Shown here: positions 35,018 through 64,000 of the stretch, piece after piece
Numbering within the stretch: the first letter of the stretch is position 1
Layout of the letters: each line of letters starts with the position of its first letter
Notes under the pieces: model-generated
What the model was told of the DNA's origin: nothing
Seen by the model: only the letters and a program-made list of their open reading frames with translations
The model's database searches: none
NCBI RefSeq assembly: GCF_900102745.1
Contig: NZ_FMZF01000004.1
Coordinates: 186,001 to 250,000 of the forward strand
Length of the DNA: 64,000 nucleotides
Direction of reading: 5' to 3'
DNA from: Geodermatophilus telluris
GTDB lineage: Bacteria; Actinomycetota; Actinomycetes; Mycobacteriales; Geodermatophilaceae
Position numbers and translations under genes: made by a program

Positions 35018-35023
35018 CCGGGC

Positions 35024-36217
35024 TCAGGCGTCGACCGCGGCGTACAGCCCGGCGGACGGGCTCGCGCCGCCGACGACGAGGTCGGCCACCACCCGGGAGG
35101 CGACCCACGCCTGCACGTGGCCGGTGCCGTTGTATCCGCCCAGCGCGAGCACCCGCCCGTCGCTGCCCGGCACCGGCCCGCACCGCGGGAGCGGGTCGTC
35201 GGCGAAGCCCACGACGCCGGCCCAGCGGTGCGTCACCGGCGCGTGCACGCCGAGCTCCTCGGCCAGCCACCGGTCCAGGCGCGCCTGCACGGGTGCGGAG
35301 ACCTCGGCCCGGTCGGTCCAGCTCGCGTCCCCGTCGAGGTCGGAGAAACCGCCGAGCGCGATCCGGCCGTCGGCGGTCTGGTGCACGTACTCGTGGCCGT
35401 GGCGCGCGTAGACGGGGAACGGCAGCACCGCCCGGTCCAGCGGTGCCGTGGCGAGCATGTTCAGCCGCCGCGGGCGCACCGCGCCCGCCGAGGGCACCAG
35501 CGCGGCCAGGTCGCCGTCGACGGCCACCACGACCCGGTCGCAGCGCACCGCGCCGGAGGCGGTCCGCACGCAGACGCCGTCGCCGTCGCCGGCCGGGGGC
35601 GCCACCACCGGCGAGGAGTCGAAGAACCGGACCCCGCGCGCCTCCAGGGCGGCCGCGAGCGCACGGAGCCAGCGCACGGGGTGCACCGACCCGTCGTGGG
35701 GGAAGAACAGCCCCGCCCGGCCGGGACGCGCCAGCGGGGCCGGCAGGTCGTCGCCGGCCACCAGCTCCCCCGGGAAGCCGTCCTCGGCGAGCGCCGCGGC
35801 GTTCACCCGGACGTCGTCGGCCTCGGCCGCGTCGACGGCGAGGCGGAGCAGCCCGCCGACGCGGAAGTGCTGCCGCGCGCCGACGGCCTCGGCCACCTCG
35901 AGCATCTCGCGCTGCGCGGCCAGGGTCGCGGCGTGCACGGCGACCGCCCGCTCGCGGCCCCACAGCTCGCGGGTCTCGTGGTACATGGGCGCCGCGCCGG
36001 CGATGAGGAAGCCACCGTTGCGGCCGCTCGCGCCGGAGGCCACCTCGTGCCGGTCGAGCACGACCACCGACAGTCCCGCGTCGCGCAGCCGCCGGGCCGT
36101 CGCCAGGCCGCCGACGCCGGCGCCGACCACGCACACGTCGGCCCGCACCTCGCCCTCGAGCGGGGACCGCGGGTGGTACGGCTCGTCCTGCCACAGCGGG
36201 ACCGGGCTCCCGGTCAC
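35024..36217 (-). CDS. FAD-dependent amine/amino-acid oxidase (DAO family)
   Basis: A 397-residue flavoprotein. [19 protein letters not shown] (FAD Rossmann motif), ASGRNGGFL just after it, and the C-terminal [19 protein letters not shown] are typical of the D-amino-acid-oxidase fold group including gamma-glutamylputrescine oxidase and glycine/sarcosine oxidases. It oxidises an amine to an imine with FAD. The start is GTG 36217 after GGGAGG. The amino-acid permease and the second DAO-like enzyme at 43736 suggest active use of amino compounds. Confidence 0.86.
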
Positions 36218-36257
36218 GTGCGCCTCCCTCTCCTGGCAGTGCGGAGCGGGCGCCCCG

Positions 36258-36674
36258 TCAGGAGGTGTGTACAGGAGCCACCCGCGCACCGGCCCGCGGG
36301 CGCACGACGAGGACCCACCGGAGCCCGGCGAAGCGGACCAGGCCCACCGCGCCGTCGACCGCGCACACCGCGAGCACCGGGGCGAGCGGTCCGGCCGCGT
36401 CCGTCCCGGCGTCCAGGGCGGCCAGCGCGAGGCTCGACGCCGCCAGGCCGGCGACGGCCAGGCCCCCGCCGGCCCACTGCGCCGCCGCCCAGCCGGCCCG
36501 GTCCCCGGCGCGGAAGGTCAGCCGGCGGTGCAGCTCGTTGGCCAGCGCGGTGGACACCACCACGCCGGCGACGTTGGCCGGCTGGTGCCCCAGCGGCGCC
36601 AGGACCAGGAGCAGGCCGGCGTGCACCACGGTCGCCGCACCGCCGACGAGGACGAACCGCGCGAACTGGGCCAC
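36258..36674 (-). CDS. GtrA-like membrane protein
   Basis: A 138-residue protein with four membrane helices. [17 protein letters not shown] in helix 1 and the cytoplasmic NELHRRLTF motif identify the GtrA family, small flippase-like proteins for undecaprenyl-phosphate-linked sugars in cell-wall glycan modification. The start is GTG 36674; no clear Shine-Dalgarno. Upstream lies furA on the opposite strand. Confidence 0.82.
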
Positions 36675-51821: not shown

Positions 51822-51869
51822 TGCTCCCCCGATTGGACTCGAACCAATAACCCTGCGAGTTGATCTTGA
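51822..51869 (-). repeat. Attachment-site repeat, left copy (tRNA 3' fragment)
   Basis: 48 bases identical to 60647-60694. Read on the minus strand it holds a complete T-arm (ATTGG-TTCGAGT-CCAAT) and a CGGGGGA acceptor strand with G discriminator, closest to the 3' half of actinobacterial tRNA-Asn. No D-arm or anticodon stem follows, so this is not a functional tRNA. GTTTGTTGGTCGT begins 94 bases past its end. Confidence 0.85.
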
Positions 51870-51962
51870 GGTGGTTGGCGGCGGTTGGTCCACAACGAAC
51901 GCGCAGGTCAACCGGCCTCCGAGCCCTCGAGCAGCGTCGGCTGCCACTGGGTATCAAGGAAC

Positions 51963-51986
51963 GTTTGTTGGTCGTAGATTGGTCGC
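51963..51986. repeat. Integrase arm-like motif, left end of element A
   Basis: GTTTGTTGGTCGT followed by a second TTGGTCG; starts 94 bases after the 48-bp core. The same motif lies at 60788-60811, also 94 bases after its core, and at 60580-60602. Confidence 0.65.
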
Positions 51987-52072
51987 GTCGTCGCCGCCGA
52001 CCTGATCCGCCTGGCTCCACACCGGCCTTGCAGAGGCTGGACCGGTACCGAAGGTCGGTCATTCTCCTGACC

Positions 52073-52537
52073 GTGACGACGGTGTCGCCAGCGGACGCGA
52101 AGGCTCGCCTGTCCAGGCTGGTCGCCCGCACCAGCGGTCAGCACGAACGCGCCTATGTGACCGTGCACGGCAGGCCTTCCGCCGTCCTGCGCACCACCGA
52201 TGACCTCTGGTCCCTCAAGGCGATCGCCGACGCCATGCGGTGGCTGCACACGTCCGAGGCTGAGCTCGCCCGAGGAGAGGCTGAGGGCCGCGACGAGCTG
52301 GACGCGGCCATAGCTCGCCGGCGCAGCCGGCAACGGATCGGTGGGGTCCTGATCCGGTCGGCCTCGGCGAAGGTGAACGTGACCGGGAGGACGACCTCCC
52401 GTCCGGCTCCGGTCCGGCCACACCCACCGCTCCTGCTGCACCCACGACCTGAGCGGCCGGCCGCCCGGCATGCGGCGGTGCCTTCCTGGAGTCTGTCCCG
52501 CAGCGGTTGCAGCCTGCGGATCACCTCGTCCAGCTGA
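52073..52537 (+). CDS. Phd/YefM-family antitoxin, orphan
   Basis: The first about 75 residues match Phd/YefM antitoxins: TTVSPADAKARLSRLVARTS, ERAYVTVHGRPSAVLRTTDDL, then an acidic C-terminal toxin-binding part (SEAELARGEAEGRDELDAAIARRR). The rest of the 154-codon reading is Pro/Arg-rich and probably not natural; the usual length is about 85-100 residues, so the 3' end may be damaged. No RelE/YoeB-like toxin gene follows. The GTG start lacks a clear Shine-Dalgarno. Confidence 0.7.
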   Translation: MTTVSPADAKARLSRLVARTSGQHERAYVTVHGRPSAVLRTTDDLWSLKAIADAMRWLHTSEAELARGEAEGRDELDAAIARRRSRQRIGGVLIRSASAKVNVTGRTTSRPAPVRPHPPLLLHPRPERPAARHAAVPSWSLSRSGCSLRITSSS

Positions 52538-52685
52538 GCGGCGTCCAGAGCCGCTGCGGCGGAGCCGAGGTCGTCGAGGGGGCGGCGATGTCCTGGGCGG
52601 CGGTGAGGGCGCGCAGGCAGCTCTCGTCGAGCTGCGCCCGGCCACCCGGGTCAGCGCCGCCCGTCGACGGCGCGGGCGTGGTCAT
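52430..52685 (-). pseudogene. Small helical protein gene, frameshifted
   Basis: ATG 52685 opens MTTPAPSTGGADPGGRAQL and DESCLRALTAAQDIAAP; the frame then breaks, and LDDLGSAAAALDAAQLDEVI with RRLQPLRDRLQEGTAA continues in another frame. One more G in the GGGGG run at 52578-52582 would join them into a single helical protein. The 3' end is not clear (given approximately). Its ATG overlaps the stop of the small membrane gene upstream (ATGA), so the two were an operon. The family is unknown. Confidence 0.5.
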
Positions 52686-52838
52686 CGCCTGCGCGGCCGC
52701 AGACCCCGGCGGGTCCGTGCCGAGCAGCCCACGCCGACGACGACACCGACGACGAAGGCGCCGGTGGTGACCCACCCGGTCCACCCCACCCGGCCGGGCG
52801 GACCGGTACGCCTGGTCCCCGGTGCCGGCCTGGGTCAT
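52682..52838 (-). pseudogene. Small single-pass membrane protein gene, frameshifted
   Basis: ATG 52838, with GGGAGGA six bases upstream, opens MTQAGTGDQAYRSARPG; after the CCCC run at 52784-52787 another frame gives GWTGWVTTGAFVVGVVVGVG, one membrane helix, and a basic tail ending at the TGA that overlaps the next start. The span is 157 bases, one more than a whole number of codons; removing one base in that run gives an intact 51-residue protein. The family is unknown. Confidence 0.5.
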
Positions 52839-52964
52839 GGCAGTCCTCCCCCGCGGCGGATCGATGGCCGCCGTGCTGACCGGCACACGGTGGGCTACGC
52901 GCGGAGGAGACCGGTGCGGGTGCGGGTCCAGCGCCCCGGGCGCCGACCGGCCGGGCGGTGTCCG

Positions 52965-53551
52965 GTGACCGTGCTGGGCAGGGTGACCGGCGCCGTCCGG
53001 ACGGCTGCGGTGACCGGACGGTGGTTCACCCTGGTCGGGTGGATCGCGCTCGCCGTGGCCACGGTCGCGCTGCCGGCCCCCGGCGGTGGCGGTGGCGGTG
53101 GCGGTGGCGACGACGCCGGAGGGCTGCTGCGCCCGGACAGCGCGGCGGTCGAGATCCAGGAACGCAGCCTGCCGCTGTTCCGCGTGCCGGTGCTGTCCGA
53201 GACCACCGTCGCGGTGCACGACCCGCAGGGACTGGACCCTCTCACCTGGGCTGATGTCGCGCTGTGGGCGCTGGCCCACTCCCTGGCCACCCTGCAGCGC
53301 GGGGTGTCGCCGACCGGGGAGCAGGTCCTCGCGGCGGTACCGGTCCCCACCTCCAGTCCCGAGACGGCGGTCACCTTCCTCTACGTGACCCACGGGACCT
53401 CGCTCGCGGAGGCGACCTCCCTCACCCGCCAGTACGCCGGCCCTTTCGACAACCATGCCTCGGTGTAGACCTACGCCACCGGGCTCGCACCGGCCTCGGT
53501 CACTCAGGCGGAGCACCTCCGGACGCGGTTGCATGTGTTCTTCGCAGGTGT
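52965..53551 (+). pseudogene. MMPL (RND-type) transporter, truncated with nonsense codon
   Basis: The N-terminus matches actinobacterial MMPL transporters: LGRVTGAVRTAAVTGRWFTL, GGLLRPDSAAVEIQERSLPL, FRVPVLSETTVAVHDPQGLD, TAVTFLYVTHGTSLAEATSL. The frame stops at TAG (53466-53468) where the family has a Glu codon, yet the similarity continues in the same frame (TYATGLAPASVTQAEHLRTRL) for about 25 codons before fading. More than 500 residues, including almost all membrane helices, are missing. It is a dead gene. Confidence 0.8.
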
Positions 53552-54033
53552 TGACCCGGTCCTCGACCGAGGCCGCCACGGACAGGACCCGACTCAGGTC
53601 CCGCTGTGCGTCGAGCGCACGACCTCGTGATGCGACCAGCGGTCCCGACCGAAGCTGTTCGTGTCGTCCCCGCCGATCCGGTGCAGTCAGCGGAGGTCGG
53701 CGCTCACCTCGCCTCCCCGACGGAGCGGGACACCCCGACGAGCGCCTCGGCGAGCCGCTGTTCCAACGCCCGGTTCCCCGACTCCTCCCGTCAGTGTGTG
53801 CTTCCGTGACCTGTCCCTCGGTGCACCGTGGTGGGAGGACGCGTCGCCGGGGTCGGTCGCATCGCCACCCCGGGGGGAGAGGCGGCGTGCTCGTGTGCGG
53901 GAGCGGGCGCCTCCGGCGCGTCGAGCCCCCGTCGCCCTCATCGCCGGCCGGGGCCACGTTCGTTGCTGTACACGGTTGCGCTCGATGGGATGACGCACAC
54001 CAGCTGGTCCTCGTGGGAGTGCGCGACACTGGA
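53552..54033. other. No gene recognised
   Basis: 482 bases between the dead MMPL gene and the regulator. Open frames exist but none has protein-like composition or a start signal; probably decayed sequence and the promoter of the next gene. Confidence 0.5.
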
Positions 54034-54723
54034 CGGGTGGAGGTGCCGCCGCGGGGCGATCGTGCCCCAGACCCTGGGCGAGCCGGCGTCAGTCGGCAAC
54101 GGGTCCTCGGGCTGATGCGCGCGGCCGCCGGACCGCTGGGCGTGCAGGAGTTGGCGGACCGGACCGGCCTGCACCCCAACACGGTGCGCTTCCACCTGGA
54201 CCGGCTGGTCGGCGAGGAGCTCGTGCAGCGGCACGTCGTCGAGCGCGGCGAGCCGGGCCGTCCCCGGCTGGCCTTCACCGCGGTGCCGCGCCCCGATCCC
54301 GCTCGGGACCGGCGCAACTACCAGTTCCTGGCCCACATCCTGGCCGGACACCTGAGCGGCACCGCGGAGGATCCGGCACAGGTCGCTCTCGAGGCCGGCC
54401 GGACCTGGGGCCGCCACCTCGTCGACCGGCCGGCGCCCTTCCGGCGGGTCACCGAGCAGGAGGCGGTGACCCGGTTGCTGGGCATCCTCGACGAGATCGG
54501 GTTCACCCCCAGTCCGGCGCCGGAGGACCCGCGCCGGATCCTGGTGCCCAACTGCCCGTTCCGGGAGCTGGCGGAGGACCACCGCGAGGTGGTGTGCTCG
54601 ATCCACCTGGGGTTGATGCGGGGAGCGCTCGCCGAGATGGGGGCGCCGGTGACTGCTGAACGGCTGCTGCCCTTCGTCGAGCCGTTCCTGTGCATCGCCC
54701 AGCTGGGGACTGCCAACGCCTGA
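54034..54723 (+). CDS. Winged-helix regulator of the COG2345 type
   Basis: A 229-residue regulator. The N-terminal winged helix is QRVLGLMRAAAGPLGVQELA, then RTGLHPNTVRFHLDRLVGEE and a wing EPGRPRLAF. The C-terminal half (DEIGFTPSPA, LVPNCPFRELAEDHREVVCS, IHLGLMRGALAEMG, PFVEPFLCIAQL) has three conserved-looking Cys that could hold an Fe-S cluster or react with NO or peroxide, as proposed for related regulators. Starts at GTG 54010, 54016 or 54034 are possible. It converges with the cupin gene, and the flavohemoglobin lies beyond. Confidence 0.8.
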   Translation, partial: RVEVPPRGDRAPDPGRAGVSRQRVLGLMRAAAGPLGVQELADRTGLHPNTVRFHLDRLVGEELVQRHVVERGEPGRPRLAFTAVPRPDPARDRRNYQFLAHILAGHLSGTAEDPAQVALEAGRTWGRHLVDRPAPFRRVTEQEAVTRLLGILDEIGFTPSPAPEDPRRILVPNCPFRELAEDHREVVCSIHLGLMRGALAEMGAPVTAERLLPFVEPFLCIAQLGTANA

Positions 54724-54756
54724 CCGAGGCCGCAGGCCTAGGAACTCCTCCGGTGG

Positions 54757-55089
54757 TCAGCGGTTCTTGACGACCGTCAGGAGCACGACGGCATCGCTGA
54801 GCGCGTACAAGCCGTGTCGAGCCTGTGGGATGACGATGAGGTCGCCGTCGCGTCCCTCCCAGGACGCCTGAGCCGTGTCCAGGCGCACTCGTCCGCGAAC
54901 AACGAGGAGGGTCGCCTCACCGGGGTTCTCGTGTTCTGCCAGGGCGTTGCCGGCTGACAGTGCCACCACGGTCTGCCGCAGCGTCTTCTCATGCCCGCCG
55001 TGGACCGTGTCGGCCGCTCGGCCACTGTCACAGGCGCCGGCCGTGAGCAACAGTTGTCGCGCCAGCGCGTCGAGGCTGACCTTCTGCAC
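54757..55089 (-). CDS. Small cupin protein
   Basis: A 110-residue single-domain cupin: LSAGNALAEHENPGEATLLVVRGRVRL and GDLIVIPQARHGLYALSDAVVLL form the two cupin motifs, with the His/Glu ligands only partly matching the metal-binding consensus. Starting GTG 55089 has AGGAGGG upstream. It is divergent from the flavohemoglobin (190 bp). Small cupins of this kind commonly accompany nitric-oxide or redox-stress genes; the exact role is unknown. Confidence 0.8.
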   Translation of the reverse strand: MQKVSLDALARQLLLTAGACDSGRAADTVHGGHEKTLRQTVVALSAGNALAEHENPGEATLLVVRGRVRLDTAQASWEGRDGDLIVIPQARHGLYALSDAVVLLTVVKNR

Positions 55090-55279
55090 GAGCCCTCCTG
55101 TCCTCGCTCACCGCGTTGCTTCGCCCGACGGGATGACCTCGGGATGTTCCTATCAGTCTTTCTCATAAGTACAACTGCTGTTGTTGCCACCCTGCTCTCC
55201 CTCTACGGTCGGTCGAGTCGTCAGCGAGCCACCCCGAACGAGGGGGTGGCGGCTGCTTCCTACGACCCAGGGGGAACCT

Positions 55280-56533
55280 GTGCTCTCGGACCGTTCACGT
55301 CCTGTCATCGAGGCCACGCTGCCGGTCGTCGGCGAGCACATCGGCGAGATCGCCAAGCGGTTCTACGCCCACATGTTCGGTGAACACCCTGAGCTGCTCG
55401 ACGGGCTGTTCAACCGCGGCAACCAGGCCGAGGGGACGCAGCAGGTCGCGCTCGCGGGCTCCGTGGCCGCGTTCGCCAGCGCACTGGTCCAGACCCCCGA
55501 GCAGCTCCCCGACCACCTGCTCAACCGGATCGCCCACAAGCACGCCTCACTGGGCCTGCGCCCCGACCAGTACCAGGTGGTGCACGAGCACCTGTTCTGG
55601 GCGATCGTCGACGTGCTCGGCGACGCGGTGACGCCCGAGGTGGCCGCGGCCTGGGACGAGGTCTACTGGCTGATGGCCTACGCGCTGATCAACCAGGAGC
55701 GCGGCCTCTACAGTGCCCGCGGTGTGCGCCCGGAGACCGTGTGGCGGCCGTGGGAGGTCGAGGAGAAGCGGCGCGAGACCGACGACGTGGTGACGTTCCG
55801 GGTCAAGCGGATCGACGACCGGCTGGTGAAGACCTCGCTGCCGGGCCAGTACGTCACCGTGAAGGTGGAGATGCCCGACGGCGTGCACCAGCCGCGCCAG
55901 TACAGCCTGACCCGCGCCGACGACGGCGAGCACCGCCAGTTCTCGGTCAAGCGCGTGCACGGCGGCGGCAAGCCCGACGGGGAGGTGTCCAACCTCCTGG
56001 TGGATCGGGTGCAGGTCGGCGACGTGCTCACCCTGTCGCTGCCCTTTGGCGACGTGGTCCTCGACGACTCCGGCCGGCCGGTCGTCTTCGCCAGTGCGGG
56101 CATCGGGATCAGCCCGATGGCCGGCATGCTGTCGCACCTGGCCGCCGCGGGCTCCGGACTGCCGATCACGCTGCTGCACGCCGACGTCGACGAGGCCTCC
56201 TTCGCGCTGCGCGAGCAGGTGGCCCGCGACGTGCGGGCCCTGCCCAACGCCTCCCTGCACGTCTGGTACGAGGGCGGCGCCGACAGCGAGCTCCCCGTCG
56301 ACGGGGTGCACGCCGGGATGATGGACCTGGGACAGGTCTCCCTGCCCGACGGTGCCACCTACTACCTGTGCGGCCCGCTGCCGTTCCTGCAGGCGGTGCG
56401 CAGCGCCCTCGTGGAGCGGGGAGTACCGCCTCGCGACATCCAGTACGAGGTCTTCGGCCCCGACCTGTGGCAGGCCGACCTCGTCACCGCACCGGCGCCC
56501 GGGGCACAGCGGGAGCCCGCCTCCGCGAGGTGA
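55280..56533 (+). CDS. hmp: Flavohemoglobin (nitric oxide dioxygenase)
   Basis: A 417-residue flavohemoglobin converting NO and O2 to nitrate with NAD(P)H. Globin domain (1-140): B10 Tyr29 in RFYAHMF and proximal heme His88 in RIAHKHASLGLRPDQY. FAD domain: GQYVTVKVEMPDGVHQPRQYSLTR (RxYS motif, in the second half). NAD domain: FASAGIGISPMAGML, YLCGPLPFLQAV and the terminal YEVFGPD. The start is GTG 55280 after a GGGGGA tract. It is the clearest functional cargo of element A. Confidence 0.95.
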   Translation: MLSDRSRPVIEATLPVVGEHIGEIAKRFYAHMFGEHPELLDGLFNRGNQAEGTQQVALAGSVAAFASALVQTPEQLPDHLLNRIAHKHASLGLRPDQYQVVHEHLFWAIVDVLGDAVTPEVAAAWDEVYWLMAYALINQERGLYSARGVRPETVWRPWEVEEKRRETDDVVTFRVKRIDDRLVKTSLPGQYVTVKVEMPDGVHQPRQYSLTRADDGEHRQFSVKRVHGGGKPDGEVSNLLVDRVQVGDVLTLSLPFGDVVLDDSGRPVVFASAGIGISPMAGMLSHLAAAGSGLPITLLHADVDEASFALREQVARDVRALPNASLHVWYEGGADSELPVDGVHAGMMDLGQVSLPDGATYYLCGPLPFLQAVRSALVERGVPPRDIQYEVFGPDLWQADLVTAPAPGAQREPASAR

Positions 56534-56969
56534 GGCGAGCGGACTCACCACCCGCGGTGTCCAGTGACGGTGCCAGGCGGACCGGGCCCACCCGGCCGGG
56601 AGCGATCACGGGCTCCGCCTCGCCCGCCGAGGAGTCGCACCGGATCGGTGCGGGGTCGCGACGCGTCCCGTGGTGCGACCGCGTCAACCCCTGCGTCCGG
56701 TGCACGGATCGCGCCGTGCGTCTGCGTGCGTGCACCCGGACCTGCGCGCGACCACCCAGCGCTCGTCACGCCCGGGTGCTGTTGGACGACCTCACGCGCC
56801 GCGGGCGGCAGGTCACAGGGGACGCAGCAGTCGGCGGCGACTGCGCTCACCGGACGTCGCGGTGCTCACCACGACCCCGGACGTCGCCCGAGGACGCGGC
56901 CAGACCCGTGTCCGGGCCCCGTCCCACCGCCGCCTGCCACCGTGTCGTCGTGCGCACGTCGGGCGGAGC
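56534..56969. other. No gene recognised
   Basis: 436 bases between the convergent flavohemoglobin and acyltransferase genes. Open frames here have irregular third-position composition and no start signals. I see no hairpin that stands out. Confidence 0.5.
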
Positions 56970-58223
56970 TCAGGTCCCGGCGAACAGCGCCCGCGTCAAC
57001 GCGGTCCGTCGGACCAGCAGGTCATAGGCCACCAACGTGCCCAGAGCGCTCGCCACACAGATGAGCAGGTACTCCAGCACGGGGTGCAGCGTGCTACCGA
57101 CGACGAGGTACGCCACCCCGACCACGATCGGCTGGTGCAGGACGTACCAGGCCAGCACCGCCGGCACGACGTAGCGCCCGACCCGGCGGCCCGGTGAGCG
57201 GTCGCCCGCGGCACGGCCCGAGGACGGCCGCAACCGGGCCAGCCACCCGACGATGGAGACCACCGCGCACCACCCGGCCGCGCCGAACGCGGCCCTCCCG
57301 ACCAGGTCGACCGGGTCACGGTCGAGCAAGGGGTCACCGTCCCCGCCCACGAGAGCCGCGCCGGCGACGGCCAGCAACGCGATGGCGACCGCCCCGGCCA
57401 GTCCGGCGTTGCAGCGCAGCACCGCGGGGAAGCGGACGTCGGACGCGAGCACCACACCGGCAGCGAAGAACAGGAGATAGCCCAGGGCGTTGCCCGCGGC
57501 GATCCCCTGGTCGAGGCCGAGCCCGGCGGCGACCGCGCCGAAGAGAACAGCCGGCAGCAGGACGACACCGCGCCGCTCGGCGCCGGCAGCCAGCAGGCGC
57601 ACGACTCGATCCCCCCGGGAGGAGCCGAGCCAGATCAGGAGCGGCACCACGGCCAGCGAGTACAGCAACAGCAGGTAGAGGAACCACAAGTGGCCGGTCT
57701 CGAAGCCCCGGCCCCCAGCGGCCGGTTGGACGACGAACGGGAAGTCCGACCAACTCCACCGGACACGGAGGAAGCGGGGCCAGAAGTCCAGGTAGGCCTC
57801 CGTGTAGTCCGGGTCCGCCCGCAGCCGCAGCCAGACCGGTAGCGGGACGAGCAGCACCGTCCCGGCCACCAGCGGCACCAGCAGCCGGCGCACCCGACGG
57901 CGGAGGTAGGCACCGGCGCTCCGCGCGCGCCACGCGTACCGGGCGCCGATCCCCGCCACCAGGAACAGCAGCGGCATCGCCGCCACCACCACCGGCGCGG
58001 CGAACGGCGTCAGGTCCACGGTGCGGTCGCTCTTGACGTAGAAGTCGTCGGTGGCGTCGAAGACCAGCGCCGCGTGGAAGGGGATCAGGCCACCGACGAC
58101 GACTCCTCGCGCGACGTCGAGGCCCGGCCACCGGCCGAGCCGGCCCGAGGTCTCCGCCGTCGTCGCCGTCCGCAGTCCCTCCCGCGCTCCCTCCGTCGGC
58201 AGCACGGTGACATCCTGCCCCAT
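56970..58223 (-). CDS. Acyltransferase-3 family membrane protein
   Basis: A 417-residue protein with about ten membrane helices. RWPGLDVARGVVVGGLIPFHAALVF at the N-terminus, GHLWFLYLLLLYSLAVV in the middle and VLAWYVLHQPIVVGVAYLVV near the end match the acyltransferase-3 (OafA/MdoC-like) family, which O-acylates glycans or lipids at the membrane; the helix-1 His of PFHAAL is the usual catalytic candidate. The start is ATG 58223; the upstream AGGACAGGG is a moderate ribosome-binding site. Confidence 0.85.
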   Translation of the reverse strand: MGQDVTVLPTEGAREGLRTATTAETSGRLGRWPGLDVARGVVVGGLIPFHAALVFDATDDFYVKSDRTVDLTPFAAPVVVAAMPLLFLVAGIGARYAWRARSAGAYLRRRVRRLLVPLVAGTVLLVPLPVWLRLRADPDYTEAYLDFWPRFLRVRWSWSDFPFVVQPAAGGRGFETGHLWFLYLLLLYSLAVVPLLIWLGSSRGDRVVRLLAAGAERRGVVLLPAVLFGAVAAGLGLDQGIAAGNALGYLLFFAAGVVLASDVRFPAVLRCNAGLAGAVAIALLAVAGAALVGGDGDPLLDRDPVDLVGRAAFGAAGWCAVVSIVGWLARLRPSSGRAAGDRSPGRRVGRYVVPAVLAWYVLHQPIVVGVAYLVVGSTLHPVLEYLLICVASALGTLVAYDLLVRRTALTRALFAGT

Positions 58224-58761
58224 CCCTGTCCTGGAGGAACCGGTCCGACGCCCGCTCGCCGAGGAGCCGCGGAGCTCCCTCGGCGCAGGCTGCGATCTGA
58301 CCGTCGCACGTCCGCCGCTCCATCGGATCGCTCGACCCCGCCGGCACGACCACGGACCGCATGCGCGCCTCCGTGACGCACCACGGACACCGGATTCGAG
58401 GCCGAAACGGCCGTCGAGGATGTCGAGCCACCCGTCAGGGGATTCAGCGACACCGCTCCTACGGGAAGCCGCCGAGGGATCCCCAGACCGCCTGCTCCGC
58501 TCGGTGATCGCAGCCGTAGTAACCGACAATCGATCAGCGCTCCCGAGGAAGGAATCGACCGCCACCTCCACTCTGACCGGTCCGCCCAGATTCCGACCCC
58601 TGACACCGGCGAGCCTCCGTCGAGATCCGACGATGAACTCTTCCGCACTGCAGAACCATCAAGATCACGGGCATCACACCTCTTGCCTGCAGGAACGGCT
58701 GATAGCGGGCCGCTGGCCGCCGGCGCTCCTGCCGGATCAGCCTCGTCGTACCGTGGGCCGG
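58224..58761. other. No gene recognised
   Basis: 538 bases between the acyltransferase start and the secreted-protein stop, with visibly lower GC than the chromosome around 58.4-58.7 kb. No convincing ORF, RNA gene or repeat is seen. Confidence 0.5.
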
Positions 58762-59001
58762 TCAGGGGTTGTTCCGCGGCGGCTGCCCACAGTTCGCCAG
58801 CCCGAAGTTGTCCACCGCCTGTGCCTGAGCGCTGCTGGCGACGAACGGACCGAATCCGGGCTCAGCCAGTGAACTGACGACGGTCCCAGCGCAGTTGTGG
58901 TCGTTGAGGCTCGGAGCGGCCAGCGCGGACGGCGCGGTCGCCACCAGGGATGCAATCGCAAATCCCAAGACGGTGGCAAGGCGAGAAGCGGACACGGGCA
59001 C
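58762..59001 (-). CDS. Small secreted protein with two cysteines
   Basis: A 79-residue precursor: VPVSASRLATVLGFAIASLV with ATAPSALA-A as signal peptide, then a mature part of about 45 residues (LNDHNCAGTVVSSLAEPGFG, SSAQAQAVDNFGLANCGQ, PPRNNP) with two Cys that may form a disulfide. The pattern NCAG...VDNFGLANCGQ resembles small exported actinobacterial proteins of unknown function. GTG 59001 has GGAGGTG five bases upstream, so the longer reading to 59052 is unlikely. Confidence 0.8.
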   Translation of the reverse strand: MPVSASRLATVLGFAIASLVATAPSALAAPSLNDHNCAGTVVSSLAEPGFGPFVASSAQAQAVDNFGLANCGQPPRNNP

Positions 59002-59335
59002 GAGGCACCTCCGAGAGCGCGGGATCCGGAGGCCAGCGTCTACGCAGCGCACGGACCTGTCACCACCTTCCTGTGCGCCCGCTGGGCCTGTCCGCGATTG
59101 AGCCCGTCGGACAGCGCTGCAGTCCGGACGACGTCTGGCTCAGTAGTTGGTGGGGGAGTACTGGAGAAGGACTGCAGCAGGCTCCTCACAGTCGGAGCCG
59201 GACGGCGTCGTCGTCATCCACAGGGCTCTGCGCTGTCCCCAGGATCCCGCGCCGTCACCGCGCGGTGTTCACCTCGTCGCCGAGCCTGTCTCAGCCGGTA
59301 CTCCCCTGCTACCGGCGAGGATCGAGGAAGCCGTC
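59002..59335. other. Promoter region of secreted protein and integrase, no gene
   Basis: 334 bases between divergent genes. Nothing else is recognised; no excisionase-like ORF lies here. Confidence 0.45.
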
Positions 59336-60478
59336 ATGGGAAGGCCACCACTGCCGGTGGGGACCTTCGGCAAGATCGACTTCCTCGTGGTGGGCAAGGG
59401 CCGGGTGCGGGCCCGGGCCAGCGTCCGCGACTTCGACGGCCGACGCCGCTTCGTCACCCGCTACGGCTCCACCCGCGCTCACGCCGAGCGGCGGCTGCGC
59501 GAGGCCCTGCGCGACCGCAACGGAATGGCGACGCCGGCCGCCACCGCCGACAGCCGGCTGGCCGCCGCCGCGGCACTGTGGCTGGCCGAGGTCGAGGCCA
59601 GCGAGCTGGCCGCCGGCACCAAGCGGCTGTACCGCCTCGTCGTCGACTCCTACGTCCTCCCCCGCCTGGGCGAGCTGCGGCTGCGCGAGGTCACCGTCCC
59701 CGCGGTCGACCGGCTGCTGACCGCCGTCCGCGCCGGCCACGGCGCCGGCGCGGCCAAGTCCACCCGCAGCGTCCTGTCCGGGATCCTCGCCCTCGCCGTC
59801 CGCCACGGCGCGCTGCCCACCAACCCGGTCCGCGAGACCACCCTGCGGCGCACCGCCCGGCCGACGAAGACCCCACGGGCACTGACCGTCGCCGAGGCCC
59901 AGCATCTGCGGAAGGAGCTCGCTGCCGACCCCGAGGCCGTTCGGCTGGACCTCCCGGAGTTCGTGGACCTCACGCTCGGCACCGGCGTGCGCATCGGCGA
60001 AGCCTGCGCGGTCCGCCCGACCGCGGTCGACCTGGACGCCGCCACCCTGGCGATCACCGCGACCGTCGTCCGTGTGCCCGGCCGGGGCCTGGTCATCCAG
60101 GAGGTGCCCAAGTCCGACACCGGGCGGCGGACCATCGCCCTACCGCCCGTCGTCGTCGGCCTGCTCCGCCGTCGCTGCGCCGCTGTCCCCCCGGACGCCG
60201 ACCCGCCGGTGCTCTTCCGCAGTCCGCAGGGCCGGCTGCGGGACCCGAACAACACCAGCGGCGACCTGCGCAGCGCGCTGGACCGAGCCGGCTTCGACTG
60301 GGTCACCTCGCACACGTTCCGCAAGACCGTCGCCACCCGGCTCGACGAAGCCGGACTCTCTGCCCGGCAGATCGCTGACCACCTCGGCCACACCCGGCCC
60401 AGCCTCACCCAGGACGTCTACATGGGCCGCCGGCTCGCCAGTCCTGAAGCGGCCGCCGCACTGCAGCGCACGCTGTAA
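59336..60478 (+). CDS. Tyrosine recombinase / phage-type integrase
   Basis: A 380-residue integrase. The N-terminal half has an arm-binding-type beta domain (FLVVGKGRVRARASVRDFDGR, in part) and a SAM-like core-binding helical region (residues about 75-165). The catalytic set is complete: Arg219 (GTGVRIGEAC), Lys259, His326-x2-Arg329 (SHTFRK), His352 (HLGHT) and nucleophile Tyr362 (DVYMG). ATG 59336 follows GAGGAAG. It ends 169 bases from the 48-bp repeat, the usual place for an integrase beside its attachment site. Confidence 0.95.
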   Translation: MGRPPLPVGTFGKIDFLVVGKGRVRARASVRDFDGRRRFVTRYGSTRAHAERRLREALRDRNGMATPAATADSRLAAAAALWLAEVEASELAAGTKRLYRLVVDSYVLPRLGELRLREVTVPAVDRLLTAVRAGHGAGAAKSTRSVLSGILALAVRHGALPTNPVRETTLRRTARPTKTPRALTVAEAQHLRKELAADPEAVRLDLPEFVDLTLGTGVRIGEACAVRPTAVDLDAATLAITATVVRVPGRGLVIQEVPKSDTGRRTIALPPVVVGLLRRRCAAVPPDADPPVLFRSPQGRLRDPNNTSGDLRSALDRAGFDWVTSHTFRKTVATRLDEAGLSARQIADHLGHTRPSLTQDVYMGRRLASPEAAAALQRTL

Positions 60479-60579
60479 CGGCGAACCGCGTTCCTCGGCT
60501 CCGCCCGCGGCCACTCCCCCGCCGCCGCGCCGTCTCCGGAGATGCCTCGACAGAGGTCGCACCGGGCTGTGCGGGAGGG

Positions 60580-60602
60580 GTTTGTTGGTCGTCTGTTGGT
60601 CC
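60580..60602. repeat. Integrase arm-like motif, right end of element A
   Basis: GTTTGTTGGTCGTCTGTTGGTCC, 45 bases left of the right 48-bp core, inside element A. Confidence 0.6.
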
Positions 60603-60646
60603 TTGGTGGATCAACTACCGACCGAACAAGCCGCTGACCTGCGTTT

Positions 60647-60694
60647 TGCTCCCCCGATTGGACTCGAACCAATAACCCTGCGAGTTGATCTTGA
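60647..60694 (-). repeat. Attachment-site repeat, middle copy (tRNA 3' fragment)
   Basis: Identical to 51822-51869 over 48 bases and different on both flanks. Again only T-arm and acceptor sequence; the expected D-arm on the right side is absent, so another element follows instead of the rest of the tRNA. Confidence 0.85.
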
Positions 60695-60787
60695 CGTCGA
60701 CGACAACCACCGGCTGGTGCTGAATGACGAGGTCAGACTCTCGTTGTGCGGCTGGGTGTTGATGGTCGACATCGGCGGTCGACGGGG

Positions 60788-60811
60788 GTTTGTTGGTCGT
60801 AAGTTGGTCGC
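60788..60811. repeat. Integrase arm-like motif, left end of element B
   Basis: GTTTGTTGGTCGTAAGTTGG plus TCGC; differs from the motif at 51963-51986 at two positions and lies exactly 94 bases after its core, as that one does. Confidence 0.65.
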
Positions 60812-61041
60812 AGCCGGGTGCTGCCCCCAGCGCGGTGGATGAGGACGCCTCAAGCGCTGTTGCTCAGGTGCGGGGTGCGGCTCGGGTCGGCGGCCTCAGT
60901 GCCCGTGTCCTCTTGTCGCCAGTCGCCGGTCGCCGGCCACGCAGGGACCTCCCACTTGGCGGAGCAGATCTGGCGATCCGCTGCGGCAGGCACTCCCAGG
61001 ATCCGTGCGACCATCGCCGGATCCTGGCGAGGAGGGCGGCC

Positions 61042-62241
61042 ATGGCGACACCGCTTCCTGTCGTGGACGTGACGCCCCGGGTCGTCGACACCCTCAAGGC
61101 CGTCCCGATGGCCCGGGCACAGGAGGGCTTCTCGGTGTCGCCCACTCTGCTCCGCGAGTACCTGGTACCCCAGGCCGACGACCGGGTCTTCCGCAAGCTC
61201 TACGTGACCGAGAAGCTCCTCGAGGGCAATCGCCTGCTGATCGCGAGCGTCGAACTGTTCCCCAACTACCAGGGCCGCATCTTCGAGGTGTCCGTCGAGG
61301 GCCGCACCCAGCTGGTCATGGCCGGCTTCAGCGGCGACCTCGGGCTGCCGCCCGTGTCCCAGACCCTGCCCTTCCTGGTCTACGTGCCGCCGAGCCCCCA
61401 GGACACTCCCGCGGCGCACCGCGCCGCCAACCGACCTCTGTACGACCGCACGAAGGACCCCGACGTCCCCGTCTACTACGGCGACGCGACCGGCTACCCC
61501 TACGCGTGGGACTGGCTGGCCTTCCAGCACCACATCAACGCCCACCGGCTCGCCCACCAGCTCAAGTGGGCCAAAAGCCCCTACGTCTTCGTCGTCCCGC
61601 TCGTGCGGAGCTTCGCCGACGGCATGGGCCCACTCGGGGCTCCCGAAGTCCTCGAGGGCGTGCTGCTGGGACTGCAGCGGTGGTATCTCGATCGACAGCC
61701 GCCGCCCGAACGCCTCCACGAGGACCGGCTGCGCCACGTGGTGCTGGCCTCCTTCAGCATCAGCACCACGATCCTCGCCGCCTTCCTCGACCGGCACCGG
61801 AACTCGCCCTTCGTCCGGGACTCCGTGACCGACCTGGTGGTGCTGGACCCGCCACCGGGCAACCCGAGGAACCGCTCACCGATCGTCGACGTCGCGCTCA
61901 GCGTGCTGCGCGGCGACCGCCGCAAGCGGCTACTGCTCTACTCCCAGGACCGGTACTACGTCGACAAGGTCACCGCGGCCATCACCCGCGCCGGGCTGAC
62001 CTTCGACCCCGCTCGGCAACGACTGTTCGCCGACCCACGTCTGCCCCACGTCGTGGTCGCCTACATCGACAAGGCACTGTTCGGGCCGGCGATCATCGAC
62101 CCCGTCCTCAAGGACGTGCACAACACCTTCCCGAACCTCTTCATCGCCGACGCCGCCCGGCGCGCCACCCTCCACTTCAGCGAGCGGGACGGCCGGCAGT
62201 TCGCCGAGACGAGCTTCCTGGATTGGGCCCCAGGACGCTGA
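61042..62241 (+). CDS. Protein of unknown function, 399 residues
   Basis: Not recognised. ATG 61042 follows GAGGAGG. It is soluble, with no signal peptide. Visible parts: FEVSVEGRTQLVMAGFSGDL, PFLVYVPPSPQDTPAAHRAA, aromatic-rich YYGDATGYPYAWDWLAFQHH, and HVVLASFSISTTILAAFLDR followed by VTDLVVLDPPPG and KRLLLYSQDRYYVD. The strand-SFSIS-helix-strand-LDPPP order is reminiscent of an alpha/beta-hydrolase nucleophile elbow, but GxSxG is not intact, so this is a weak guess. 69 bases separate it from the next gene; the two are probably one operon. Confidence 0.8.
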   Translation: MATPLPVVDVTPRVVDTLKAVPMARAQEGFSVSPTLLREYLVPQADDRVFRKLYVTEKLLEGNRLLIASVELFPNYQGRIFEVSVEGRTQLVMAGFSGDLGLPPVSQTLPFLVYVPPSPQDTPAAHRAANRPLYDRTKDPDVPVYYGDATGYPYAWDWLAFQHHINAHRLAHQLKWAKSPYVFVVPLVRSFADGMGPLGAPEVLEGVLLGLQRWYLDRQPPPERLHEDRLRHVVLASFSISTTILAAFLDRHRNSPFVRDSVTDLVVLDPPPGNPRNRSPIVDVALSVLRGDRRKRLLLYSQDRYYVDKVTAAITRAGLTFDPARQRLFADPRLPHVVVAYIDKALFGPAIIDPVLKDVHNTFPNLFIADAARRATLHFSERDGRQFAETSFLDWAPGR

Positions 62242-62310
62242 GCCTTCCCGGGCCCCCCGGCTGCCCGTACCGTCGCACCCTCCACGGAGCGGCGCGGGGA
62301 TCGAGGCGTC

Positions 62311-64000
62311 ATGTTCGACCTCTTCAAGGACCTGGACACCTACCGCGGGATCCCGCCCTACGCCAGCGAGCACTACGGCGTCTACCAGCCCCTCCTGGGC
62401 TGGCGCTCGAACCTGACGACCCAGTGGGTGCGCAGAGGCGGGCGCACGGTGGACCCGCGCCTGCGGCGCATCCTCGACGGCCGGATCACCCCGGGCGTCA
62501 CGGAGGTGGTCAACCCCCATCCACTCGAGTTCCTGGCCCAACCCCTGGAGCCAGGCTCGGGGCGTACTCCGTGGCGCGTGGTGGCGCCGCGGCCGCTGGG
62601 CAGCGAACTCATCGTCGTCCTCCGCGACAGGGTGCAGGCGTGGGTCGACGCCCACGACGGCCACCTGCCGCAGGGCACCGAGTGGGCGGCAGTCATCGAC
62701 ATCAACGTGCTCCTCAACACCGACGAGGGACCGCTGCGCGTGGTGAACGACAGGCACCGGGAGCGCATCTGGGCACGGATGCAGGCCGAGGCCGGCGAAG
62801 GCGGGGTCACCCCTGCGGCCATCGAGGCGGGACGCGCCGAGCTGCTCGACCTCATGCGGTTCGAGTCCCAGATCGCCGCGATGCTGCTGTTCCACGCCGA
62901 GGCGCAGGCGGACTACGACCCGGCGGCGCTGGAACAGCTCTACGTCGTGGTCACCGCACCCCCGCTGTCCGAGGTGCTGGCCACCACCGATCCGCTCGCC
63001 ACGATCGACCCCGAGGACCGCAGCGGCGTGCTGTCACCGGTCGGCTTCGTGCACCTGTTCCGCCAGTACTTCTTCGACCTGGGGACGTTCCTCGGTGAGC
63101 CCGTCGAACACGTCTGGCTGGCTCCCGGAACCACGATCGAGCTGATCGAGGTGAGCACCCGGCGGGTCCTGCTGGAGCGCACCGAGGAGATGTCGCTGGA
63201 GACGCAGCAGCGGGTCGAGGCCTCGACCAGCGTGAAGGACGAGCTGAGCGACGCCGTGCGCGCCGAGAACAGCGGCAGCACCAAGCTCGGCGTCTCGACG
63301 ACCAACACCGTGAAGGTCGGCGTCTACCAGGGGTCGGCCACCGCGAGCCTCGGCCTCGAATCAGCTCGCAAGGACGCCCGCGAGTCACTGCACAAGCAGA
63401 GCCGCGAGCAGACCGAGAAGCTGTCCTCGGAGATCAAGCGGAGCTACAAGTCCGTGTTCAAGACGACGACGGAGACCACCGACAGCCGGACGCGTCGCTA
63501 CGTCCTGCAGAACCCCGGCAGCGAGCTGGTGAACTACGAGCTGCGCCGCAAGATGCGTCGGGTGGGCGTCCAGCTGCAGGACGTCGGCGAGCGACTGTGC
63601 TGGCAGGTCTTCGTCGACGACGCCGGTGCCGGCCTCGGGCTCGCCGACTTCGTGCACTACGCCGAGTCACCCGACCTCGCCAACCTCAAGGAACCCGACC
63701 CGCTGCCGCCGCCGGCGGCCATCGTCAAGAAGGTCACCGTCCCCATCCCCTTCTCGCCCATCCTCAACTACGACGACAACGGCCCCGCCGCCATCTACGA
63801 GTGGCGCTACGTCGAGACGGCGAAGACCGCCTACGAGGGCAAGCACCTGGGCAACCGCGCGAACACCAACGACGAGGACGCCGAGGACAACCAGGTCGTG
63901 ATGGGACCGTTCACCTTCAAGATCGACCCACCTCAACTGGATTACGTGCTCACCGACGACATCCGCGTGCTCGGGCCGCAGGGCAGCAAGCTCGGACAGG
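62311..64000 (+). CDS. Large protein of unknown function, N-terminal 563 residues (partial)
   Basis: Open from ATG 62311 to the window end. The N-terminal part has FDLFKDLDTYRGIPPYASEH and GVYQPLLGWRSNLTTQWVRR. Residues about 290-400 are a long charged, Ser/Thr/Lys/Glu-rich stretch (RTEEMSLETQQRVEASTSVK, SARKDARESLHKQSREQTEK), predicted extended helix or coiled coil, then YVLQNPGSELVNYELRRKMR, RVGVQLQDVGERLCWQVFVD and beta-rich sequence. No membrane helix or signal peptide is seen. The layout suggests a structural or assembly protein. Family unknown. Confidence 0.8.
   Translation, partial: MFDLFKDLDTYRGIPPYASEHYGVYQPLLGWRSNLTTQWVRRGGRTVDPRLRRILDGRITPGVTEVVNPHPLEFLAQPLEPGSGRTPWRVVAPRPLGSELIVVLRDRVQAWVDAHDGHLPQGTEWAAVIDINVLLNTDEGPLRVVNDRHRERIWARMQAEAGEGGVTPAAIEAGRAELLDLMRFESQIAAMLLFHAEAQADYDPAALEQLYVVVTAPPLSEVLATTDPLATIDPEDRSGVLSPVGFVHLFRQYFFDLGTFLGEPVEHVWLAPGTTIELIEVSTRRVLLERTEEMSLETQQRVEASTSVKDELSDAVRAENSGSTKLGVSTTNTVKVGVYQGSATASLGLESARKDARESLHKQSREQTEKLSSEIKRSYKSVFKTTTETTDSRTRRYVLQNPGSELVNYELRRKMRRVGVQLQDVGERLCWQVFVDDAGAGLGLADFVHYAESPDLANLKEPDPLPPPAAIVKKVTVPIPFSPILNYDDNGPAAIYEWRYVETAKTAYEGKHLGNRANTNDEDAEDNQVVMGPFTFKIDPPQLDYVLTDDIRVLGPQGSKLGQ

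Follow-up and report, generated by a model that had tools for sequence, protein, structure and literature searches.

A probable tandem of two integrative elements at the 3' end of a tRNA-Asn gene in Geodermatophilus telluris

Introduction

How does part of a tRNA gene come to stand twice, 8.8 kb apart, in a region of the Geodermatophilus telluris genome where neither copy belongs to a tRNA? The region is a window of 64 kb (C7:186001-250000 of genome G000, 4.8 Mb in 12 contigs; "the window" denotes this whole stretch, and coordinates without a contig name are counted from its first nucleotide). A 48-bp exact direct repeat occurs in the whole window at 51822 and 60647 only, 8,825 bp from start to start. 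The best explanation, with a probability of roughly 0.9, is that two integrative elements of one integrase-specificity class, designated A and B, lie in tandem at the 3' end of tRNA-Asn(GTT), and that B has decayed. Tandem accretion with decay is already known; the present analysis adds its exact anatomy at this site, a likely course of decay for B and a proposed place for the crossover.

Results

No exact direct repeat of the window is longer than this one, which reaches 51 nt if one mismatch is allowed; in 20 first-order Markov simulations of the window the longest repeats measured 16-20 bp. ARAGORN detects no tRNA and Rfam no family at its gathering score within the 64 kb, so neither copy runs on into a tRNA, as the original prediction, made from the letters of the window alone, had held. 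The same prediction proposed the layout chromosome, core, A, core, B and core plus intact tRNA, the last part lying beyond the window, and a rightward search did find both a third core and a minus-strand tRNA-Asn, so the refuting outcome named with the prediction for that side did not arise. The core pattern occurs in G000 in exactly three copies, all on one strand (C7:237832, 246657 and 338177; up to 3 mismatches allowed, 0 matches for the reversed-pattern control), and the third is fused to a complete minus-strand tRNA-Asn(GTT) predicted by ARAGORN at C7:338168-338241. Core to core, A measures 8,825 bp and B 91,520 bp, B ends at C7:338203, and the order is left flank, core, A, core, B, core/tRNA. 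The position of this next copy had been called predictable, which its distance was not.

The junctions and elements within the window are as follows.

51822..51869, plus strand: att (attachment) copy 1, a 37-nt core (51822-51858) and 11 nt of element sequence; left end of A
60647..60694, plus strand: att copy 2, the junction between the right end of A and the left end of B
51822..60683, unstranded: element A with both cores, 8,825 bp core to core
60647..64000, unstranded: left 3.4 kb of element B, which runs beyond the window to C7:338203

The repeat had been noted to contain a tRNA T-arm and acceptor strand. Its first 37 nt (TGCTCC...CTGCGA) alone are common to the 3' part of tRNA-Asn and are identical in all three cores (0 mismatches); its last 11 nt, GTTGATCTTGA, are not part of the tRNA. 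Where copies 1 and 2 read GTTGATCTTGA, the intact gene at the third copy reads TTAACAG..., its anticodon loop. Within the genus, GTTGATCTTGA is also present at the left ends of several elements.

A second signal, the arm-type repeat GTTTGTTGGTCGTnnnTTGGTC, lies at +141 from the core start of copies 1 and 2 and at -67/-68 of copies 2 and 3, so that each element has one at its left end and one at its right end, on the expected side of each junction. It is exact at these 4 places in G000, with 0 further places at up to 2 mismatches and 0 for the reversed-pattern control; the arm repeats presumably bind the integrase. Those of the window are given below.

51963..51984, plus strand: arm-type repeat GTTTGTTGGTCGTnnnTTGGTC, 141 bp right of the start of core 1; left end of A
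60580..60601, plus strand: arm-type repeat, 67 bp left of the start of core 2; right end of A
60788..60809, plus strand: arm-type repeat, 141 bp right of the start of core 2; left end of B

This geometry recurs in the genus. The core pattern (up to 3 mismatches) is present in all 26 genus genomes compared, 16 of them having more than one copy. Among 54 cores of the fetched loci, surveyed with up to 4 mismatches, 22 in 9 genomes have arm-like sites, at offsets of -67 to -69 and +140/141 with two weak extra matches as the exceptions; the 32 cores without arm sites of the GTTTGTTGGTCGTnnnTTGGTC class probably belong to other integrase classes. Genus-wide, the arm repeat was found at 29 places in 14 of the 26 genomes (up to 2 mismatches), 21 of these being at a core (one, in G005, degenerate) and eight elsewhere.

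Two further arrangements were seen among these cores. Contig C21 of G001 carries a row of core copies, all on one strand, the tRNA being on a separate contig, C22. On contig C11 of G003 (238451 and 767912), a core with a left-end arm repeat lies 529 kb right of the tRNA on the same strand, and an integrase fragment is found 2 kb left of that core. This does not fit a simple left-side array and likely reflects a rearrangement.

Element A has the make-up of an integrative element of a tRNA gene, with att cores at both ends, an array that restores an intact tRNA, and its own tyrosine integrase beside one att site. The complete integrase announced just inside the right copy is indeed there: the match covers positions 3-165 of the 172 of the PF00589 profile, and 168 bp separate the end of the open reading frame (ORF) from copy 2. 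The genes of A are listed below; the starts of 54115..54723 and 56970..58223 come from the gene caller of this analysis.

59357..60478, plus strand: tyrosine integrase of A, 373 aa, PF00589, open frame from 59147
52073..52537, plus strand: Phd/YefM-type antitoxin gene near the left end of A (PF02604, E 4.5e-10; TIGR01552, 22.2 bits, cut-off 20.8)
54115..54723, plus strand: helix-turn-helix (HTH) regulator (PF09339, E 9.1e-07 on the longer ORF 53455-54720), cargo of A
54757..55089, minus strand: small cupin-like protein (PF07883, E 2e-05, 24.7 bits, below the cut-off of 27.2), cargo of A
55280..56533, plus strand: flavohaemoglobin-type protein with globin, FAD and NAD domains, cargo of A
56970..58223, minus strand: membrane acyltransferase (PF01757, E 1.8e-19), cargo of A

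No partner toxin gene was identified for the antitoxin at 52073..52537, and the best NCBIfam match of the flavohaemoglobin-type protein, PRK13289 (E 4.6e-98, 328.8 bits), stays below the model cut-off of 432. An A-like element of about 8.77 kb is found in G005 directly at the tRNA, with B absent. It resembles A at its right end (89% over 1,623 bp, including the integrase) and its left end (75% over 596 bp). The core on its left side is degenerate, and 0/6 of the other predicted genes of A match there. Relatives of the A integrase in named genomes (32 loci) fall into four equal groups of 8/32: the core just downstream of the gene, the core upstream, another tRNA (Lys, Thr, Arg, Met), and nothing recognised. 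A second integrase branch, 45-51% like that of A, has the tRNA-Asn core upstream, about 1.3 kb before the gene end, and not downstream.

Element B holds 67 genes predicted by the same gene caller, 45 of which were scanned with Pfam. The first two (61063-62241, 392 aa, and one from 62311, 920 aa) have no Pfam match. Among the others are CsoR-type repressors, a heavy-metal-binding protein, a P-type ATPase, rhodanese proteins, BCCT and OpuAC transport, a Rieske oxygenase and reductase, DHDPS, aldehyde dehydrogenases, aconitase X, NAD-glutamate dehydrogenase and an IS110 transposase. A relaxase of 1,973 aa (TrwC, E 7e-83; MobF NF041492, 243.5 bits, cut-off 100) ends 2.7 kb from the third core, and between it and the right end there are only 2 kb, with a weak IS3-like scrap. 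A second integrase had been expected just before the third core, an expectation that failed: PF00589 and tblastn (E above 0.1) reveal no tyrosine integrase there or anywhere in the 91.5 kb, and of the eight PF00589 matches in G000 only that of A and one at C7:10908 are on C7. A search of C7:335400-337500 for a remnant, using the integrases of three relatives, gave a best E of 0.15, which is at chance level.

The missing part may be judged from the relatives. PF08751 matches occur in 19 of the 26 genus genomes, and of the 13 strongest (at least 272 bits) six lie left of tRNA-Asn on its contig in the same relative orientation (G000, G001, G004, G008, G009 and G020). From relaxase start to tRNA the distance is about 39-59 kb in the five relatives versus 8.6 kb in G000, and in these five the MobF relaxase left of tRNA-Asn is followed by shared conjugation-type genes. 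The relaxase of B is 76% like that of G001, and the last 0.8 kb of B is 83% like that of the G001 element, where it is preceded by an integrase (73% like that of A). In G001, the best match to the right end of B, 29 genes are predicted between the relaxase and an HTH_17 gene, 24 of which recur in both G008 and G009, and the conjugation-type genes are followed by the HTH gene and the integrase; 0/29 of these block genes match in C7:226001-346000 of G000. A Pfam run on 16 distinct proteins, from G001 only, named a TraG/TraD-type coupling protein, an M23 peptidase, a LysM protein, T2SSE and two T2SSF proteins (a Tad-like ATPase and membrane proteins), a SAF protein, HTH_17 and the integrase, and one ATPase has a weak match to a VirB4-like structure (E 3.9e-05). 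The block left of tRNA-Asn in G001, with counterparts in G004, G008, G009 and G020, unites a MobF relaxase, TraG/TraD and Tad-like pilus genes.

These comparisons bear on two other views of B. One is that only A is mobile and that the 91.5 kb to its right are old chromosome between two att-like remnants. No integrase was found in B, and its copper genes have homologues elsewhere in the chromosomes of relatives; however, arm repeats stand at both ends of B at the offsets seen in A, B has a relaxase and a right end matching that of G001, there beside an integrase, and the A-like element of G005 abuts the tRNA with no B in between, so that this view deserves scarcely any credence. The other is that B never owned an integrase and consists of chromosomal genes captured between two element ends, reliant on neighbours throughout. 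The lack of any integrase trace above chance agrees with this, whereas the relaxase and right-end ORFs of B are those of a G001 element that carries an integrase at this very spot, which makes it improbable. The preferred reading, that B is a decayed element, is consistent with its content: attL and attR are kept (cores and arm repeats at both ends) and the integration genes are lost, as in a cis-mobilizable element (CIME) as defined in PMC5704250; of the transfer genes, none of the G001 block matches, but a MobF relaxase is retained. B is classed as CIME-like and not filed as a CIME. Of the integrase, relaxase and coupling protein or type IV secretion system (T4SS) that would mark an integrative and conjugative element (ICE), the relaxase alone was found, 45/67 genes having been scanned.

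The exact place of recombination is suggested by element ends away from tRNA genes. The eight off-core arm repeats comprise four left ends that start exactly at CCT(G/A)CGA, one place with a deeper piece only and three without left-end likeness. These four isolated left ends (G002 C23, G006 C5, G006 C13 and G041 C14) match the tRNA-site left ends from CCT(G/A)CGA rightwards, the DNA to their left being unrelated. A motif search (42 matches) yielded two more clear isolated left ends (G001 C24 and G023) and a weak one; this search is biased in that the motif itself begins with CCTGCGA. Most of its 3-mismatch matches look like chance. Since the isolated left ends begin at this motif, strand exchange is placed, tentatively, at or next to CCTGCGA, which is the 3' strand of the anticodon stem; in each left-end copy the target would then have contributed the 30 nt on the left of CCTGCGA, and the element the 11 nt on its right. 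Right-end partners were not found in 60 kb (G006 C5), in 16.5 kb to the contig end (G006 C13), in 40 kb each (G002, G041 and G023), in 20 kb (G003) or for G001 C24, where the contig stops after 1.8 kb; relics or rearrangements are therefore as likely as whole secondary insertions.

The isolated left ends of G002, G006 (two), G041, G001 C24 and G023 all lie in non-tRNA places and start with CCT(G/A)CGA. In G041 a 30%-identical integrase lies about 21 kb inwards; the stretches examined at the other ends contain none. The G023 end has 1.4 kb (71%) in common with the left part of the unit of G004, whose two cores are 75.7 kb apart.

As to the left boundary, the 55 bp of flank that directly precede copy 1 are similar to the DNA left of att copies in G003 and G005, and copy 1 may therefore have an older, worn element on its left. 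A search of the window leftwards of copy 1, allowing up to 13 mismatches in 37, turned up no degenerate core. The DNA left of copy 1 was considered as a stable neighbour of the tRNA and rejected: its HupE-like part (49.0-50.2 kb) has strong matches in 8 relatives, and within the fetched tRNA neighbourhoods it occurs in G002 only, about 16-18 kb away and inverted. The chromosome side, to the left of the variable region, is marked by a conserved FAD oxidoreductase-like gene (35019-36289), which in G010 stands 6.2 kb away from the tRNA.

Discussion

Each element would have entered by a tyrosine-recombinase exchange between attP and the tRNA 3' end, the tRNA being rebuilt each time. B is probably the remnant of a conjugative element from which the transfer block, an excisionase-like gene and the integrase were deleted beside the right end, while genes for metals, sulfur and betaine/amino-acid catabolism were kept. 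With arm repeats shared by A and B, the integrase of A could release either element singly (A, 8.8 kb; B, 91.5 kb) or both together (A+B, 100.3 kb), and B might still be movable by it; onward transfer of B would require a helper conjugation machine.

Several points weigh against this reading. The array was analysed in one assembly of one strain, from sequence only, and it is the decayed element that adjoins the target gene, where the usual accretion scheme puts the newcomer. A clean empty site, proposed as a check among related genomes, was not found in the tRNA neighbourhoods of the relatives, which reach at most about 19 kb leftwards. No excisionase like that of G001 was found in the G000 region searched, which renders the ability of A to excise uncertain. 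The IS3-like scrap is one weak match (E 0.0023, 17.3 bits, cut-off 160) with no Pfam match. Finally, no integrase of this kind was detected next to the tRNA in G008 and G009, and in G004 and G020 the integrase gene is oppositely oriented, the order of block and integrase otherwise being seen in G001 only.

A and B may also have come as one composite, from core 1 to core 3, joined elsewhere beforehand. The identity of the three cores over 37 nt and the single class of arm repeats would fit such an event, and transfer of this kind is described for CIME-ICE tandems (PMC5704250). On the other hand, the A-like element stands alone at the tRNA in G005, and B-like right ends lie at the tRNA in G001, G003, G006 and G019, perhaps with an A-type neighbour; a joint arrival is thus unlikely but not negligible.

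The array accounts for about 100 kb of G000 with exact ends, its cargo being a flavohaemoglobin island (A) and a copper/sulfur/betaine-catabolism island with a relaxase (B). The fixed att geometry lets such elements be found in draft genomes, including integrase-less members that an integrase-based rule such as that of Islander would miss. It also poses the question of whether a small intact element can mobilise a large crippled neighbour. A broader idea, possible though doubtful, is that tRNA-Asn in Geodermatophilus serves as a shared docking platform for same-ended, cargo-swapping elements, the integrase-less ones being mobile via a neighbour in an integron-like stack, with occasional non-tRNA insertions at CCTGCGA. 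The constant end pieces would then be the Phd antitoxin side and the integrase side, with arm repeats at fixed offsets, and the array would be integron-like but built of whole 8-90 kb elements.

Actinomycete integrative and conjugative elements (AICEs) rely on FtsK-like double-strand transfer, whereas the transfer genes of the Geodermatophilus relatives are relaxase-based. No FtsK/SpoIIIE-type translocase was found among the 45/67 B genes scanned, no family-directed search having been made. The T4SS-based actinobacterial ICEs with MobF, a class that PMC3218068 searched for, likewise combine a TrwC relaxase, a coupling protein and a VirB4-like ATPase, and the elements of the relatives differ from them by added genes for a Tad-like pilus; in Cutibacterium acnes, putatively conjugative plasmids are known to carry tad loci (PMC5696575). 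The main text of PMC3218068 makes no mention of Geodermatophilus or Blastococcus, and no paper on this tRNA-Asn site was found in the literature on accretion and Geodermatophilaceae islands, of which few subscription papers were reached.

Tandem accretion at tRNA genes is documented, actinobacteria included, in PMC3218068, PMC5704250 and PMC4383910. The AICE tandems Fean5518/Fean5534 (tRNA-Lys, Frankia) and Sav3708/Sav3728 (tRNA-Arg, Streptomyces avermitilis) show the same tandem tRNA insertion, and the Fean pair excises singly and jointly (PMC3218068); their members each encode an integrase, whereas B is without one. The islands of Islander likewise have a tRNA fragment at the far end and the intact tRNA at the near end, and its table counts 125 tandems of two or more among 3,919 islands, only 4 being of three or more (PMC4383910). 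Its tandem rule demands an integrase in each member, so the A-B array would go unresolved as a tandem. A like anatomy is seen in the accretion of ICEs, integrative and mobilizable elements (IMEs) and CIMEs in the ICESt1/CIME model of Streptococcus (PMC5704250), where the same tandem forms at one target gene end and, as in B, the decayed member keeps attL and attR while the integrase resides in its neighbour.

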